Part shown: piece by piece, positions 12,964 to 19,256 of the stretch
How positions within the stretch are numbered: position 1 is the stretch's first letter
Layout: each line of letters starts with the position of its first letter
The notes under the pieces: model-generated
The model's input: only the letters and a program-made list of their open reading frames with translations
What the model was told of the DNA's origin: nothing
Database searches by the model: none
Source: Elusimicrobiota bacterium
GTDB taxonomy: Bacteria; Elusimicrobiota; Elusimicrobia; JACQPE01
Assembly: GCA_016180815.1 (NCBI GenBank)
Contig: JACPAN010000010.1
Coordinates: 79,913-143,912 of the forward strand
Length of the DNA: 64,000 bases
Direction: 5' to 3'
Made by a program: the position numbers and the translations under genes

Positions 12964-14086
12964 TCAATCCTTGATCTCTTCTCTTTTCCACGGCATTTTA
13001 GGTTTCTTCTCGATCAAATACGTCAAAAATCCCTCGATCAAAGCATCGAGATCGCCGTTCATCACGCCCTCAATATCCGAAGTTTCCACTCCGGTTCTCA
13101 AGTCCTTGACCATTTGATAAGGCATGAACACGTAGGAACGGATTTGATTTCCCCAGCCGATATCGCCTTTCTCCGTGTAATGGCGCTCCGCCTCGGAGCG
13201 TTTTTTGTCCATCTCGATTTCATAAAGCTTGGCCTTGAGCATTTTCATGGCCATCGAACGGTTCTTAAACTGCGAGCGCTCCACCTGGCAGGCGACCACG
13301 ATCCCCGTGGGCACATGCGTCAGGCGCACGGCGGTTTCCACCTTATTGACGTTTTGACCGCCGTGTCCGCCCGCGCGAAATGTATCCATTTTAATATCGC
13401 TTTCCGCAACCTCGATATCATGCGTATCTTCGATATCCGGCAGCACGTCGCAACTGGCGAAGGAGGTGTGCCGGCGCTTATTCGAATCAAAAGGGCTGAC
13501 CCGCACCAGACGATGCACGCCTGTTTCCCCTTTTAAAAATCCGTAGGCGTTTTCGCCTTCAACCAAAACGGACGCGCTTTTAACCCCCACTTCTTCGCCC
13601 GGCAGAAGAGACGTGATCGTGAACCCAAGGCCTTTTTTTGCGGCCCACATTTTATACATGCGAAACAACATATCCGCCCAGTCGCAGGCTTCCGTGCCTC
13701 CGGCGCCGGAATGAATGGATAGAATCGCGCTGGCCTTGTCGTTCTCGCCCGAGAGTTTCAGGCGCATTTCCCAATCCCTGATTTGCCGGGCGAACGAATC
13801 GCCGGCTTTCCGCGCTTCGCCGAGCTCTTGCTCATCTGCGGCCTCGGCGGCCAGGTCCCAATGCGCTTTGACATCCTGCAACTGCCGCTCCATGCGTTCC
13901 ATATCCGTCAATTGCCGGCGCAAATCCGAGACTTCCTTGTTGACGTCCTTGGCTTTCTGCGTATCGGCCCAGAGAGCGGGATCATTAGCCTGGGCCTCGA
14001 GGGTTTTCAGGCGAGCGGATTTCCCCGGCGCGTCAAAGCAACCTCCTTAACGCATCCAGGCGTTCGGACAACTCTTTAATTTCCAC
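12964..14086 (-). CDS. prfB: peptide chain release factor 2, expressed by programmed +1 frameshifting
   Basis: RF2 is encoded in two frames. A GTG at 14084-14086 opens a 17-codon frame ([17 protein letters not shown]) ending at a TGA at 14033-14035. Skipping the T at 14035 enters the long frame ([18 protein letters not shown]...), giving a total of about 373 residues, normal for RF2. The long frame carries the tripeptide anticodon region [13 protein letters not shown] and the catalytic GGQ in [14 protein letters not shown]2 ends translation at UGA and UAA, and the frameshift at UGA is its own feedback control. The GTG is fixed by an in-frame TAA four codons upstream; a TAAAAT hexamer stands 6 bases before it and no Shine-Dalgarno sequence is seen. 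Annotating only the long frame from a TTG near 13923 would lose about 54 residues. Confidence 0.93.
14033..14047 (-). promoter_or_regulatory. prfB +1 recoding site
   Basis: On the minus strand the site reads AGGAGG-T-TG-CTT-TGA, followed by C. An internal Shine-Dalgarno-like AGGAGG (14042-14047) stands three bases before the slippery CTT (14036-14038) and the in-frame stop TGA (14033-14035). This spacing is the same as in the well studied E. coli prfB site. The internal pairing with 16S rRNA pulls the ribosome forward when RF2 is scarce. Confidence 0.93.
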
Positions 14087-14100
14087 GGGTGTATTTTAGC

Positions 14101-14143
14101 CAAAAACAAACTCCTCGGGGTCCTTTGCAGAAGCCCCGAGGAG
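14101..14143 (-). terminator. rho-independent terminator after the glycine-zipper gene
   Basis: On the minus strand a perfect 10-bp stem, CTCCTCGGGG (14134-14143) with CCCCGAGGAG (14111-14120), encloses a 13-base loop. It is followed by TTTGTTTTTG (14101-14110). It stands 35 bases after the stop of the gene at 14178-15116 and just before the prfB start, so it ends the upstream transcript. Confidence 0.88.
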
Positions 14144-14177
14144 CGGGAGGGAGAGTACGCGGTTGGGAATCTATTGT

Positions 14178-15116
14178 TTAGGAGACATTCTCCTCTTCAG
14201 GATGCGTATGTTCCGTATGTCCATCGGCTGAGGCCGTCGTAGAAACCGATTCTGGCGCAGGAGGATTTTCTCCGCCTTCCGTGTTGCCGCCGTCAGCCGG
14301 CGGATTGGTCGGTGTTTCTCTACTTTCTCGCTCCTTATTCTTGGCCATTTTCTCAAAATAGGGCAAGGTGCCCAGCGCCGCGCCGACGATAGCGCCCACG
14401 ATGGCGCCGATAATGCTGCCGCCCGGACCAAAAAGGCCGAACAGGCCCAAGCCAACGGTCAACAACGTCATCCAGGTGGGATACATCATGTCCGCGCCAA
14501 TGGCATCGGCCCATAATGCGCCCAGACCGAAAACAAGACCGGGGATCAGTCCAATCAGACCGACGACAGGGCTTCCCGCAATAAGAGAGGCGGCAACATA
14601 CCCGCCCGCGCCGACCACGCCGGCCCAAAACATTTTATTCTTGAAAAAGTCCGTCCAACTCCCGGAAGACTCCGCTTCCTCAGCCGGAGGCGACGCTCGA
14701 TCAGGACGCTCCGGCGTCACGGGCGTGGCTTCGTAATGAGGGCGGATATCCGGATTAATCTCGGATGATCCGGCATCAGCGACTCTAACGGCGCCGGCCG
14801 AACCGTAATCATTGGATGGATCGCCGTCGCCGTCATGATCGCGTCCGTCAAAAATCAAATCTCCCTGACGTACTGCGGTGTCCGTTCCACCATCAGGCGT
14901 TGGAGGATTGGGCATCACATCGGGCGCTGTGGACGACGTCGTTGAACCGTCGACAGAAAGCGGATCCTCTTCATTGGGCACGCCGGGACTGCCGCTGCCG
15001 GAACCCCGGGCTGAAGCGCGCAAAGTATCCTCGCGGGTATCGGCATAGGCCAAATGAGCCGTCAAGCCGAAACCAACCATCACAATCAGACTTAAGAACG
15101 CGAATTTTTTCGACAT
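14178..15116 (-). CDS. secreted glycine-zipper protein, function unknown
   Basis: A 312-residue protein not recognised as a named family. A signal peptide (MSKKFAFLSLIVMVGFGLTAHLAYA) is followed by about 130 residues of low-complexity, Ser/Gly/Asp/Pro-rich sequence. A hydrophobic block follows (about 155-255) with several glycine-spaced segments, such as GPGGSIIGAIVGAIVGAALG. The tail is charged (NKERESRETPTNPP...EHTHPEEENVS). Glycine zippers of this kind pack as membrane helices or pores in other proteins. The same plan is seen in the next two paralogue-like genes upstream (15131 and 17130). A Shine-Dalgarno-like GAGGAG directly precedes the ATG. The terminator follows. Confidence 0.7.
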   Translation of the reverse strand: MSKKFAFLSLIVMVGFGLTAHLAYADTREDTLRASARGSGSGSPGVPNEEDPLSVDGSTTSSTAPDVMPNPPTPDGGTDTAVRQGDLIFDGRDHDGDGDPSNDYGSAGAVRVADAGSSEINPDIRPHYEATPVTPERPDRASPPAEEAESSGSWTDFFKNKMFWAGVVGAGGYVAASLIAGSPVVGLIGLIPGLVFGLGALWADAIGADMMYPTWMTLLTVGLGLFGLFGPGGSIIGAIVGAIVGAALGTLPYFEKMAKNKERESRETPTNPPADGGNTEGGENPPAPESVSTTASADGHTEHTHPEEENVS

Positions 15117-15130
15117 CTCCTCACACCTCT

Positions 15131-16153
15131 CTATAGATTTTTAAGCAATCCGATTAATCCGAAAAACAGACCGATGCCCAGGCCGACGGCGCCGCCAAGT
15201 AAAGCGCCGCCTAACAATCCGCCGCCCAGGGCTCCGGCGACGCCGAGCAAGCCGCCGATGAAAGCGCCGACTCCGCCCAGGATCAGGATCGGGGCAAGCG
15301 CTTTGCCCAATTTGTCCAATGTGCCTGAGGCGCCGAGTCCATAAATCAAGGCGAAAGCCCCGAGGCCGATTAAAATCGGCAGGCCGATGCCTAAAAATGT
15401 TGCTGTCGCGCCCAGCGCCGCCGAACCAAAGGCTCCGAGCAATCCCACGCCGGCGCCGATCGCGCCCCATTTAATGTGATTGCCCCAATCAACGCCTTCT
15501 GATTCGCCGCTTTCGCCGCCAGATTCTCCGTTGGGAGCAGGCGCCGCGCTGGTGGAAGCTGAGCCTGATGGAGCAGCCGTTTCCGCGGAAGCGCTTCTAG
15601 GTAAAACTTCATCCCCGGACATGGCCGGGCGAACAGGACTTGGGCTGCCCTCCGAAGCGCCGGCGCCGTCATAAACCACGCTTCCTTCCCTGGCCACCTC
15701 ATCGGGTGTGCCCCTTAAGGCCGGATCAGCCGTGCCGCGATCAACCGCCCTGGCGATGCTGAACGCCGGGCTGGTTTCCAGCGTTCCATCGGTATTGCGA
15801 TAAATCACTTGCGCCCTCTGCCCGTCCTCCATAGGGACGACATTGGCCACGCGTTTGCCTTCCGGGGTGGGCGGTAAATTAACTCGGTACGATTCACCGC
15901 TGGCGGGGTTTGTAATTTGAATATAGGTTGCGGAACGGGACACGGCCATGCATCGCCCGTCGCCTAAAGGTTCTGCGCCCGCGGGGCAATCAGGCTCCGG
16001 AGCTCCTGAGCCGGGGCCTTCGGCAAAAGAAAAAGACAAAAATGACAGGAACAGCCCTGCAACAATTAAAAAATGGGCGCTTCTATTTTTTTCCAAAACA
16101 GCCGCGTTATTCCCTGTCTTCTCTCCCTTCACGTTTCTCCTGAGGTTTTTCAT
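15131..16153 (-). CDS. secreted glycine-zipper protein, function unknown
   Basis: A 340-residue protein from the ATG at 16151-16153, chosen because GGAGG stands 7 bases upstream; a TTG six codons earlier would swallow that site. A long N-terminal segment ends in a hydrophobic stretch (HFLIVAGLFLSFLSFSFA), probably a signal peptide. A middle part of about 170 residues is rich in Pro, Ser, Ala and Gly. The last 120 residues are very hydrophobic and glycine-rich (e.g. GGVGAFIGGLLGVAGALGG), ending GLIGLLKNL. Its layout mirrors the neighbours at 14178 and 17130. It may be an outer- or inner-membrane-associated oligomer; no function is claimed. Confidence 0.68.
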   Translation of the reverse strand: MKNLRRNVKGEKTGNNAAVLEKNRSAHFLIVAGLFLSFLSFSFAEGPGSGAPEPDCPAGAEPLGDGRCMAVSRSATYIQITNPASGESYRVNLPPTPEGKRVANVVPMEDGQRAQVIYRNTDGTLETSPAFSIARAVDRGTADPALRGTPDEVAREGSVVYDGAGASEGSPSPVRPAMSGDEVLPRSASAETAAPSGSASTSAAPAPNGESGGESGESEGVDWGNHIKWGAIGAGVGLLGAFGSAALGATATFLGIGLPILIGLGAFALIYGLGASGTLDKLGKALAPILILGGVGAFIGGLLGVAGALGGGLLGGALLGGAVGLGIGLFFGLIGLLKNL

Positions 16154-16184
16154 CTTTCCCTCCTCGAACAAATACTAACACAAG

Positions 16185-16280
16185 AAGGAAAAATGACCTA
16201 GGGTCCAAAGGGCCTTTTTGATATAGCTAAAGGTCCTATGCATGGATAGGACTTTAGTCCTATATTAAAAATAGGAAAAA
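16185..16280 (-). other. overlapping inverted repeats between HEAT gene and glycine-zipper gene
   Basis: This spacer holds several competing hairpins built on the repeated units GTCCTAT and ATAGGAC. An 11-bp stem with one bulge lies at 16228-16256 (TAAAGGTCCTAT against ATAGGACTTTA). A palindrome GGACTTTAGTCC lies at 16249-16260, and TCCTAT pairs with ATAGGA across 16258-16276. Because they share arms, only one can form at a time. GGGTCC-AAA-GGGCC plus a T-run (16201-16219) is an additional wobble hairpin on the plus strand. A regulatory role is possible but only inferred. Confidence 0.45.
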
Positions 16281-16299
16281 AGCGGTTTTATTGCTTCTT

Positions 16300-17094
16300 T
16301 TAGCGAGAAATAACGAATCCTGGGGTTTGAGGGGGACGCAAGGCCGGTGGAAGCTGCTGGGAAAGCTCCTCCGGCATGGGTAAAACCTGCCTGGGGGCGC
16401 ATTCTTGTGGATTATCAGGGCAAATCCAGGCCGCAAATTTCCAAGCGTCTTTAGACAACGTTTCCACGGCTGCTTGACGGACGGGAACATTGGAGTCCTT
16501 GGTCAAATCCCGAACCTTAGCGGCCGCCGGACGGTAATCGTCCACAACCGCCCAATAAAGGCTTTTCACGCAGGCCACCTTTATAGGGAGATCGGCGTTG
16601 CGCACTTCACGTAGGAGGAAATCATACACATCATGTTCCACGCCTGCCGATCGAAATTGGCCCAGCGCCCGGACGGCTTCAAACTTCGGGCCCAAATTGT
16701 ACTCATCATCCGCTCGTTCCAACAAAAAATCCCGGACATCGTCGTAAGTGTTGACCGCCCAGCCGAGGACTCGAAGACTGATCATCCTGACTTCCATCGT
16801 TGAATCGCGCTGGGCCAATCGTTGCAAAGGATCATGCGTGGCCGGATCGCTCGCAACATGGTAGCGAAGACCATAGATGGCGGCGAGACGAACGTTTAAA
16901 GGCTGCGAGGTGTCTTGGGCGACCCTGAGGAGATCGTCGCGGCTGTCGGCCGCAGCCCGAAGCTCACGGGTTGACTCAAGCTCAGGCAGGATCAAGCCCT
17001 CGTCTAATTGGGCGTATGCTTGCTCAGCTTCGCCGATACTTAAAGAAGCCCAGGAAAAAGACGAACACAGCAGAACCAACGCGAGTCCGCGCAT
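16300..17094 (-). CDS. secreted HEAT-repeat protein
   Basis: A 264-residue protein with a signal peptide (MRGLALVLLCSSFSWA). It has about five HEAT-like helical pairs, e.g. LNVRLAAIYGLRYHVA, MEVRMISLRVLGWAV, GPKFEAVRALGQFR, LPIKVACVKSLYWAV and VPVRQAAVETLSKDAWK. HEAT arrays are protein-binding scaffolds. The C-terminus is proline-rich with two cysteines (ICPDNPQECAPRQ) that may form a disulphide. A strong Shine-Dalgarno (GGAGGAGG) precedes the ATG. It sits between two glycine-zipper genes on the same strand, so it is probably part of their operon and may bind one of their products. Confidence 0.72.
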   Translation of the reverse strand: MRGLALVLLCSSFSWASLSIGEAEQAYAQLDEGLILPELESTRELRAAADSRDDLLRVAQDTSQPLNVRLAAIYGLRYHVASDPATHDPLQRLAQRDSTMEVRMISLRVLGWAVNTYDDVRDFLLERADDEYNLGPKFEAVRALGQFRSAGVEHDVYDFLLREVRNADLPIKVACVKSLYWAVVDDYRPAAAKVRDLTKDSNVPVRQAAVETLSKDAWKFAAWICPDNPQECAPRQVLPMPEELSQQLPPALRPPQTPGFVISR

Positions 17095-17129
17095 TTCCCC
17101 TCCTCCGCTAAGTTTCGCTTAACGTTTTC

Positions 17130-17666
17130 TTAATCCGGGAATAATGTTTCGCCGACCTTCAAAAGGCCGACCATGGAACCGACCAGAAAACCAAGCGCAA
17201 CAAACCCGATGGCAACACCGAGGCCCAAGCCGATGCCTGCAGTCAGGGCCGCGGCCGTGGACCAGCCGGCAGCGCCTGCCGCAGAATACGCTAAAGCGCC
17301 GCCGAGAACACCCATGCCCACGCCCACACCCGCGCCCACGCCCAAACCGATTTTGATGGACTTTTGAATCATTTCTTTGGGTTTCGGCGCCTCCGGTTGA
17401 TCGGCCGGCACCGCGGGAACAGGCCTCACCGGAGCAGGTTGAACGGGCATGATTACCGGGCCTTCGGAATCATCGGCCGGAGCCACCGGGCGCGCGTCAC
17501 CGGCCGGATCGGCCTGCGCCACGCGCAGCGGACGAAAATTAAGACGAGGAGAAACGTCAAATCGACGGCCCAACTCTCCATGCTGGCCTTCCGGTTGTCC
17601 CGAAACAGGATTAACGAAAGCGACGCCGGCGATCAAAAGCGCTGACAAGATCAGGGTTTTAGACAT
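17130..17666 (-). CDS. small secreted glycine-zipper protein, function unknown
   Basis: A 178-residue protein. A signal peptide (MSKTLILSALLIAGVAFVNPVSG) is followed by a Pro/Ala/Asp-rich linker with repeated PVRPVPAVPADQPEAP-like sequence. The C-terminal hydrophobic glycine zipper (about 105-170) reads IGLGVGAGVGVGMGVLGGAL and GIGLGLGVAIGFVALGFLVG. An excellent Shine-Dalgarno (AAGGAGG, 7 bases before ATG) is present. It is the first gene after lnt on this strand and heads the group 17130-16300-15131-14178. The linker-plus-zipper plan repeats that of the other two zipper proteins. It is not recognised as a known family. Confidence 0.68.
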   Translation of the reverse strand: MSKTLILSALLIAGVAFVNPVSGQPEGQHGELGRRFDVSPRLNFRPLRVAQADPAGDARPVAPADDSEGPVIMPVQPAPVRPVPAVPADQPEAPKPKEMIQKSIKIGLGVGAGVGVGMGVLGGALAYSAAGAAGWSTAAALTAGIGLGLGVAIGFVALGFLVGSMVGLLKVGETLFPD

Positions 17667-17678
17667 TGTGTTCCTCCT

Positions 17679-19256
17679 TCATTTTCCTATCCTCCCACGG
17701 TTGGAAAGTTTAGCAACAACGGTGATGCCTGTAAAGAACAAGCAAAGCCATGGAAAAGCGGTTTGACTCTCCGCCCACAACAACGACGGCTGCGGCAATT
17801 CTTCAATGAATCCGGAGAGAACCGTCCTGGTATTGAGCTCGGCCCTGGCCGTCACTTTCCCCAAGGGATTGATCACGGCCGAAATCCCGGTATTAGCCGC
17901 CCGAATCAACGGCAGTCTGGTTTCAATGGTCCGGGCGATATTCATCAGAAAATGCTGATGAGGGGCCGCTGTGTCGAGATACCAGCCGTCGTTGGTGACA
18001 TTAACCAGGACTTTGGCCCCGCGCCGGCGCGCGGCGCGGGCGATGACCGGGAAAACGGCTTCGTAGCAAACGGAAAAACCCGCCTTGATGCCCGGCAGGA
18101 CTTCGATAGGCATGGGTGTTGGTCCGGGCGTAACCTCTCCGGTCGTCACGATCACCGGGGTTTCTTCGGCGTTCACGAAAAAACGCAAAACCGGCATGAT
18201 CGCCCATCGAAAAGGCAAATACTCGCCGAAGGGAACAAGACGCACCTTGCTGTAAATGCCGGACTCGGCCCCATCCAGAAAACAGACCACGCTGTTAAAA
18301 AAACGCCGGTGATCGGTAAGAACCAACCCGCCCAAATAAGCGGTTCCTTTATTCATCGGGATGTCCTTAAAAAATTCGATCCGGTCGGACGCCGGCAAAG
18401 AAGCGCCGGAAGATTCCATCCTAAGCGCATAAGGATAGAAGGATTCCGGATAAACGATCAGATCAGGATTTGTTGAGTTGGCTTCTCGCGTCATCTCGCG
18501 ATAGACGGCGGTCACATGAGCGGCTCGGCCGTCATCCCACTTTTCATACTGATAAATATTGCCCTGGATTACCGCGACATCGAGGGTTCTATTTAAAACT
18601 CGAGTCAAAGACCGCAAACGCCAGGCCCCCCACCCTGCGGCCAGCGATACGATCAGGGCGGCTAAGGCGATCAACTTGGTTTGCCGCCGGCAAAAAGCCC
18701 GCCAGATCAAGGCCTGTGTAAAAACCATCAAGAATCCCAACAAAGGCACGCCGCCGATTTCAGCCAACTGCGCCAAGGGCTGCACGGGGATCAGGGCATA
18801 ACCCAAATAACACCAAGGAAATCCGCCGAAAACAACGGGCGCCAAACGCAAAAATTCGAAAGCAACCCAGGCCGCGCCCACAGCCATCGCAAAAACCAGG
18901 GAATTTTTTATGCGCTCAACAGCCGTTTTCATACAGAAGCCGAACCCCGCCCAAAAAACACCGATCACCGCGGCCAAAAGAATCCAAGCAGTCCAGGCTG
19001 CCGGCCAATGAGCGCCTCCGGCGCGCAGAGTAACGGGAATCCAATTAAAAATGAAGAGGTTGCCACAGACGCCGGCCGCAAAAGCAAGCCAAGCCCCCTG
19101 GCGTGCGTTCCCGGCGCGGGATAAGGACCAAAAAAGAGGGATCAGGCAAAACCAGCCGGTCAGCCGGCCGAAATTAAACTTGGGAAAACACGAAGCAAAA
19201 AGAACGCCCGACGCCAGGGAGCAGAGCAGAAGCGGATTAATTTTTTTGATGAACAA
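17679..19256 (-). CDS. lnt: apolipoprotein N-acyltransferase Lnt
   Basis: A 525-residue inner-membrane protein with six to seven N-terminal transmembrane helices, a periplasmic nitrilase-fold domain (about 225-480) and a last C-terminal helix. The nitrilase triad is visible: Glu in VYPESFYPY, Lys in YSKVRLVPFGEYLP and Cys in FSVCYEAVFP. Lnt adds the third acyl chain to lipoproteins, which lets LolCDE recognise them, so it fits the lol genes nearby. The start is a TTG immediately after the secA stop; no closer ATG or GTG exists. Confidence 0.92.
   Translation of the reverse strand: MFIKKINPLLLCSLASGVLFASCFPKFNFGRLTGWFCLIPLFWSLSRAGNARQGAWLAFAAGVCGNLFIFNWIPVTLRAGGAHWPAAWTAWILLAAVIGVFWAGFGFCMKTAVERIKNSLVFAMAVGAAWVAFEFLRLAPVVFGGFPWCYLGYALIPVQPLAQLAEIGGVPLLGFLMVFTQALIWRAFCRRQTKLIALAALIVSLAAGWGAWRLRSLTRVLNRTLDVAVIQGNIYQYEKWDDGRAAHVTAVYREMTREANSTNPDLIVYPESFYPYALRMESSGASLPASDRIEFFKDIPMNKGTAYLGGLVLTDHRRFFNSVVCFLDGAESGIYSKVRLVPFGEYLPFRWAIMPVLRFFVNAEETPVIVTTGEVTPGPTPMPIEVLPGIKAGFSVCYEAVFPVIARAARRRGAKVLVNVTNDGWYLDTAAPHQHFLMNIARTIETRLPLIRAANTGISAVINPLGKVTARAELNTRTVLSGFIEELPQPSLLWAESQTAFPWLCLFFTGITVVAKLSNRGRIGK

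Follow-up and report, generated by a model that had tools for sequence, protein, structure and literature searches.

Conserved non-coding elements and fast-changing exported proteins at a probable two-unit locus in an Elusimicrobiota bacterium

The genes described here, three encoding glycine-rich proteins (zip1, zip2 and zip3) and one encoding a HEAT-repeat protein, lie in a 64,000-nucleotide stretch of an uncultured bacterium of the Elusimicrobia (phylum Elusimicrobiota; GenBank assembly GCA_016180815.1, contig JACPAN010000010.1, positions 79,913 to 143,912), which as a whole is called the window; the nearest functional analogue known to us is the Cdz system of Caulobacter crescentus. CdzC and CdzD are reported to be glycine-zipper bacteriocins of 84-86 amino acids (aa) that have a dedicated type I exporter and an immunity protein, CdzI (PMC5380434). 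The zip proteins resemble them in being exported, Gly-rich and apolar, encoded in pairs and lineage-restricted, whereas the small size, type I exporter and CdzI are Cdz features not seen at this locus. At 178-340 aa, the zip proteins lie outside the ~5-10 kDa range with extended GxxxGxxxG of Cdz-like proteins, and there are no type I secretion genes between the flanking genes, which we take to be the housekeeping genes lnt (apolipoprotein N-acyltransferase) and prfB. Small-residue apolar helices in exported proteins are likewise found in the Gly-zipper Pfam families (e.g., PF13488, Gly-zipper_Omp), a family with no match in this genome, the zip proteins included, at E <= 0.001. For the non-coding DNA that follows the genes, the comparison class consists of intrinsic terminators and 3'-end-derived small RNAs with a C-rich anti-Shine-Dalgarno arm; the element shares with them a GC stem, a T-run and an unpaired C-rich arm upstream, and differs in that its loop and arm are near-invariant in three genera, in that Rfam gives no match at the element (two hits elsewhere are far below the cut-off) and in that no Hfq was found. 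Gene regulation in Elusimicrobiota is, to our knowledge, almost unstudied.

All four are genuine genes and the only ones in the lnt-prfB interval, lying consecutively on the minus strand in the order zip1, HEAT, zip2, zip3 when read from lnt toward prfB (Table 1). A Shine-Dalgarno (SD) sequence precedes each of the four starts, and each protein has a hydrophobic N-terminus that a simple heuristic scores as a signal peptide. An earlier, sequence-only reading had described a four-gene group with SD sequences and a closing terminator; the four consecutive open reading frames, the SD sequences and, by sequence, a terminator-like hairpin after zip3 were all recovered, but the group is probably composed of two transcription units rather than one operon, since the 146-bp gap between HEAT and zip2 contains a promoter-like region. 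The remaining gaps measure 12 bp (lnt-zip1), 35 bp (zip1-HEAT) and 14 bp (zip2-zip3). A single four-gene operon of one protein family was rejected on account of this promoter-like region, the marginal pairwise similarity of the three zip proteins and a profile comparison in which little beyond a short linker motif, [FY]DG, connects zip2 with zip3.

Judged by alignment, the strongest conservation at the locus is found in non-coding DNA. The sequence after zip3, AGATTCCCAACCGCGTACTCTCCCTCCCGCTCCTCGGGGCTTCTGCAAAGGACCCCGAGGAGTTTGTTTTT, comprises a C-rich 5' arm (TCTCCCTCCCG), a 10-bp stem (CTCCTCGGGG/CCCCGAGGAG), a conserved loop and a T-run, and the GC-rich stem together with TTTGTTTTT on the transcribed strand gives it the form of an intrinsic terminator. 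Comparison was made within a family set of four genomes, namely this one (G000) and three relatives (G001, G002 and G003). The 47-nt core is identical at 45 of 47 positions in G001 and at 46 of 47 in G003, compared with 42 and 44, respectively, for the best of 1,682 neighbouring 47-mers taken from prfB, lysS and their neighbours; over 71 nt, the element is 97% identical to that of G003, as against 68-74% in other alignable stretches of the region. It folds as one stem (z of -2.7, -3.7 and -3.9). Of 117 genomes, the three that have a zip pair before prfB each carry a single copy, and no others do. A TAAAAT box (14093-14098), of a kind present in all four family genomes, lies a few bases ahead of the GTG at which prfB probably starts, and this position makes it likely that the hairpin keeps the zip transcript apart from prfB.

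The other conserved element is situated in the HEAT-zip2 gap, where three 12-bp palindromes (GGNC-N4/5-GNCC, with an imperfect match in the middle copy) start 24 and 22 bp apart (a period of 22-24 bp) upstream of a -10-like box. The same array and -10-like arrangement is found at the contig end of G001 and upstream of the first zip gene in G003, where inspection of the position expected from the other two genomes revealed it although the near-exact motif search had not listed that site. All 36 near-exact palindrome copies in the four family genomes were examined; forward hits per genome numbered 8, 7, 11 and 7, as opposed to 2, 0, 1 and 0 for the reversed pattern. Thirteen copies are in tandem and 11 in divergent positions, one is convergent, one is inside a doubtful reading frame and 10 are at the edge of a contig or stretch. 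Where a gene faces the site, its start is 55-109 bp away in 22 of 31 cases; by the heuristic, 15 of these 31 nearest facing genes encode a signal peptide, compared with 92 of the 372 genes used as background. Of 29 further palindromes around the sites, 23 lie 21-25 or 44-50 bp away, in bins that take in 24 of the 220 offsets. The literature collection searched contains no instance of the palindrome strings or of the rear-element string, papers outside it not being covered. Copies of the motif also adjoin genes for presumed GGDEF-type proteins in two family genomes (L146 and L162). Beyond the family, G009 has the motif six times against none in a control, including a three-palindrome array (L165) that stands after lnt and an HDAC-like gene and before a gene for a 254-aa exported protein.

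The arrangement zip2-zip3-hairpin-prfB is kept in three of the four family genomes (G000, G001 and G003), which represent three genera. Linkage of all four genes, by which the sequence-only reading proposed to judge the group, was borne out in part. In G001, lnt and HEAT run up to a contig end that carries an apparent zip2-type promoter and the SD sequence of a next gene, zip-zip-prfB is found on another contig, and zip1 is absent from the locus. In G003, zip-zip-prfB runs up to a contig end and the HEAT gene was not detected; lnt was found in neither the G003 nor the G002 assembly, so the absence of HEAT there is not firm. G002 has a gene that we presume to be HDAC-like directly before prfB, with no zip gene or hairpin there. 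HEAT and the zip pair thus appear to adjoin in two genera, with zip1 as an extra. Across the class, none of the 24 genomes in which a single fetched stretch covers both lnt and prfB has zip- or HEAT-type genes in the interval, which spans <=340 bp between protein matches in 15, holds an HDAC-like gene in 7, contains two small genes (107 and 114 aa) in one and comprises ~600 bp without a clear gene in another.

The three zip proteins had been credited with one plan ending in a glycine zipper. A signal-like N-terminus is common to them, but the plan is otherwise loose, with ~55 hydrophilic residues C-terminal to the apolar block in zip3 and a predicted beta domain in zip2. In comparison with 2,000 shuffled versions of the same segment, the apolar segment of zip1 has an excess of GxxxG (11 versus 4.6; p 0.001), but those of zip2 (10 versus 9.8; p 0.54) and zip3 (6 versus 4.1; p 0.20) do not, and GxxxGxxxG shows an excess in zip1 and a mild one in zip3 (p 0.011); "exported proteins with apolar Gly-rich helices" would be the safer label. 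A low-confidence single-sequence structure model of zip2 (predicted local distance difference test [pLDDT], 57) suggests that a small beta domain is followed by a disordered linker and then by helices at the C-terminus; the model had no Foldseek match at E <= 0.001. None of the three matches Pfam or NCBIfam over curated cut-offs, and matches to PHROGs are weak (best E, 0.0066). Sequence search of 41 genomes gave no match to zip1 in the other 40, none to zip2 or zip3 outside this genome and no zip homologue outside the family; a zip family from another locus, found in 3 of 60 genomes, is confined to the same family. The zip proteins evolve fast, identity being 17-28% for zip3.

The [FY]DG motif, which several zip proteins contain, was noticed post hoc. 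It was rejected as a sorting signal for the genome at large, since 11 of 169 exported-like proteins have it and so do 13 of 238 others, and the extended form FDG...PV was rejected likewise (2 of 128 and 1 of 182, respectively). A scan of 372 called genes over ~453 kb of this genome, the window included, returned 11 genes with a Gly-rich apolar block of 60 residues, six of them also positive for a signal peptide: zip1 to zip3, one gene on contig C3, and two that belong to a second cluster, on contig C5. This cluster (L192 1417-7696, contig C5 ~101.4-107.7 kb) encodes about seven small exported Gly-rich proteins, counted by eye, and adjoins genes for two paralogous 288-aa regulators whose similarity to DUF4423 is just under the cut-off. 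A separate family of exported Gly-rich proteins occurs in three family genomes (L131, L142 and L153), each downstream of the palindrome motif and, in this genome, beside an exported protein that is presumably thioredoxin-like.

That the remaining gene encodes a HEAT-repeat protein with a signal peptide, as proposed earlier, was upheld: the protein scores over the cut-off for PF13646 (HEAT_2; E of 1.3e-10, 41.9 bits versus 27.7), and its structure model, built from two sequences (mean pLDDT, 68.5), is an alpha solenoid that resembles alphaRep and HEAT structures in Foldseek, which together place it, by profile and model, among HEAT-repeat proteins. It differs from HEAT_2 proteins in being exported, in its Cys-containing C-terminal motif (Table 1) and in having a clear orthologue only in G001, the sole strong match among the 41 genomes (35% protein identity). 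A phylum-wide profile search gave matches in 16 of 247 genomes, the best after the two profile rows (G000 and G001, both with E below 1e-140) having an E value of 8.8e-12.

These observations can be combined in one account, to which we give an even chance of being right as a whole. One unit would consist of lnt, with zip1 and HEAT trailing, and the other of zip2-zip3, expressed from their own promoter between conserved front and rear elements. A putative dimeric regulator would bind the palindrome array and switch on zip2-zip3 along with a wider set of mostly exported proteins, probably as an activator, given the lack of a good -35 box. The proteins would leave the cytoplasm by Sec export, the Gly-rich helices would insert into a cell-envelope membrane and associate there, the beta domain of zip2 and the linkers would be located in the periplasm, and HEAT would be a putative periplasmic binding protein. 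The hairpin would stop transcription ahead of the prfB promoter, and the invariance of its C-rich arm and loop suggests that it has a further role as RNA, e.g., as a 3'-end RNA pairing with SD sequences. In the boldest form of this idea, the lasting product of the zip2-zip3 unit would be RNA, a near-invariant 3'-end element whose anti-SD arm feeds back on the translation of envelope proteins such as HEAT in bacteria without detectable Hfq, which we consider unlikely.

Several points weigh against the two-unit account and its RNA extension: (i) signal peptides and membrane helices were called by simple heuristics only; (ii) no regulator of the palindrome array was identified; (iii) strict palindrome pairs at 21-25 bp were absent from an unbiased sample of 389 kb, and the regulon would therefore be small; (iv) the adjacency of HEAT and zip genes in G001 is deduced across a contig end; (v) positional zip orthologues within the family share 17-28% identity and align poorly; (vi) carriers of the rear element number only three genomes; (vii) the search for Hfq was positive in 5 of 14 control genomes but in none of the four of the family, which leaves a classical Hfq-dependent small RNA unsupported; (viii) predicted pairing of the C-rich arm with start regions is a weak test, as any strong SD sequence scores well, and ranked HEAT 3rd of 391 in this genome, with zip2 50th, zip1 65th and zip3 190th, zipB 5th of 54 in G001, and zipA 6th and zipB 19th of 39 in G003, while the rank of G001 zipA (27th of 54) refers to an internal start set by the gene caller, the true start being beyond the contig end; and (ix) the element may be a terminator only, conserved for some other cause.

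Alternatively, the zip proteins could be structural or stress proteins of the envelope, membrane-anchored spacers that are co-expressed with exported proteins, do not interact with HEAT and are its neighbours because the lnt-prfB gap tolerates insertions. We regard this as possible, if somewhat unlikely: the gap does hold different genes in different families, zip1 is missing from the G001 locus, no interaction signal is present in the sequence, and in G009 the array lies, past lnt and an HDAC-like gene, in front of the gene for an unrelated exported protein; the succession of HEAT and a zip2-type promoter, on the other hand, is kept in two genera in which the HEAT proteins share 35% identity. 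Contact-dependent or membrane-inserting antibacterial proteins, surface-associated like the Cdz bacteriocins, would explain the export of Gly-rich apolar domains, the speed of divergence, the confinement to a single family and the second cluster beside two DUF4423-like regulators. The zip proteins have Sec-type signal peptides, however, in place of the RTX-like leaders of the far shorter Cdz proteins; neither a type I exporter gene nor an evident small immunity gene is present between lnt and prfB, zip2 and zip3 lack a GxxxG excess, and several helices after a long linker would equally fit a membrane protein of the producer itself, so that we hold an antibacterial role to be decidedly improbable.

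As regards the palindromes, short copies in small intergenic arrays could also be REP/BIME-like repeats, spread by a RAYT-type transposase rather than serving as binding sites, and G002 does carry two transposase-like genes that we presume to be RAYT-type (L092 58-1074 and L160 304-1275), the latter with a palindrome upstream. REP/BIME repeats prefer 3' ends and convergent regions, whereas here one of 26 classed sites is convergent, 22 of 31 stand 55-109 bp before a gene start, and the three-copy array at the zip2 promoter is kept across three genera; we give this explanation very little credence.

The locus offers two handles for further work in this lineage, namely the palindrome motif, as a marker for a limited group of largely exported proteins within the family and also outside it (G009), and the conserved RNA element, which is single-copy and syntenic. 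Should the element work in trans, it would represent a regulatory RNA from a 3' end in a lineage that yielded no Hfq; should it be a terminator only, one would have to ask why the conservation of its loop and upstream arm exceeds that of prfB. A shared front switch and a near-unchanging hairpin around fast-changing proteins hint at regulation that has not yet been described.

Table 1. Positions of the locus features in the window
Feature	Position	Strand	Remarks
lnt (presumed)	17679..19256	-	Left boundary
zip1, 178 aa	17130..17666	-	Signal-like N-terminal segment, Pro-rich linker, apolar Gly-rich C-terminus, significant GxxxG spacing
Exported HEAT-repeat protein, 264 aa	16300..17094	-	C-terminal WICPDNPQEC motif, invariant in the G001 orthologue
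Palindrome array and -10-like box	16172..16262	-	Same architecture in G001 and G003
Palindrome 1	16247-16262	-	TAGGACTAAAGTCCTA
Palindrome 2	16223-16238	-	TAGGACCTTTAGCTAT
Palindrome 3	~16201-16214	-	GGCCCTTTGGACCC
-10-like box	16172-16177	-	TAGTAT
zip2, 340 aa	15131..16153	-	Signal-like segment, predicted small beta domain at ~60-127, disordered linker with VVYDG, apolar Gly-rich helices at 229-339
zip3, 312 aa	14178..15116	-	Signal-like segment, linker with LIFDG, apolar Gly-rich block at ~160-258, hydrophilic tail
Near-invariant non-coding element	14098..14172	-	47-nt core at 14109-14155
prfB (presumed), main frame	12964..13923	-	Frameshift site AGGAGGTTGCTTTGAC upstream; probable GTG start near 14086; match in 41 of 41 genomes

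The prfB gene is nearly leaderless in appearance (14031-14098 of the window) and carries the AGGAGG...CTTTGAC frameshift site usual for this gene, and its start is much alike in the three relatives.

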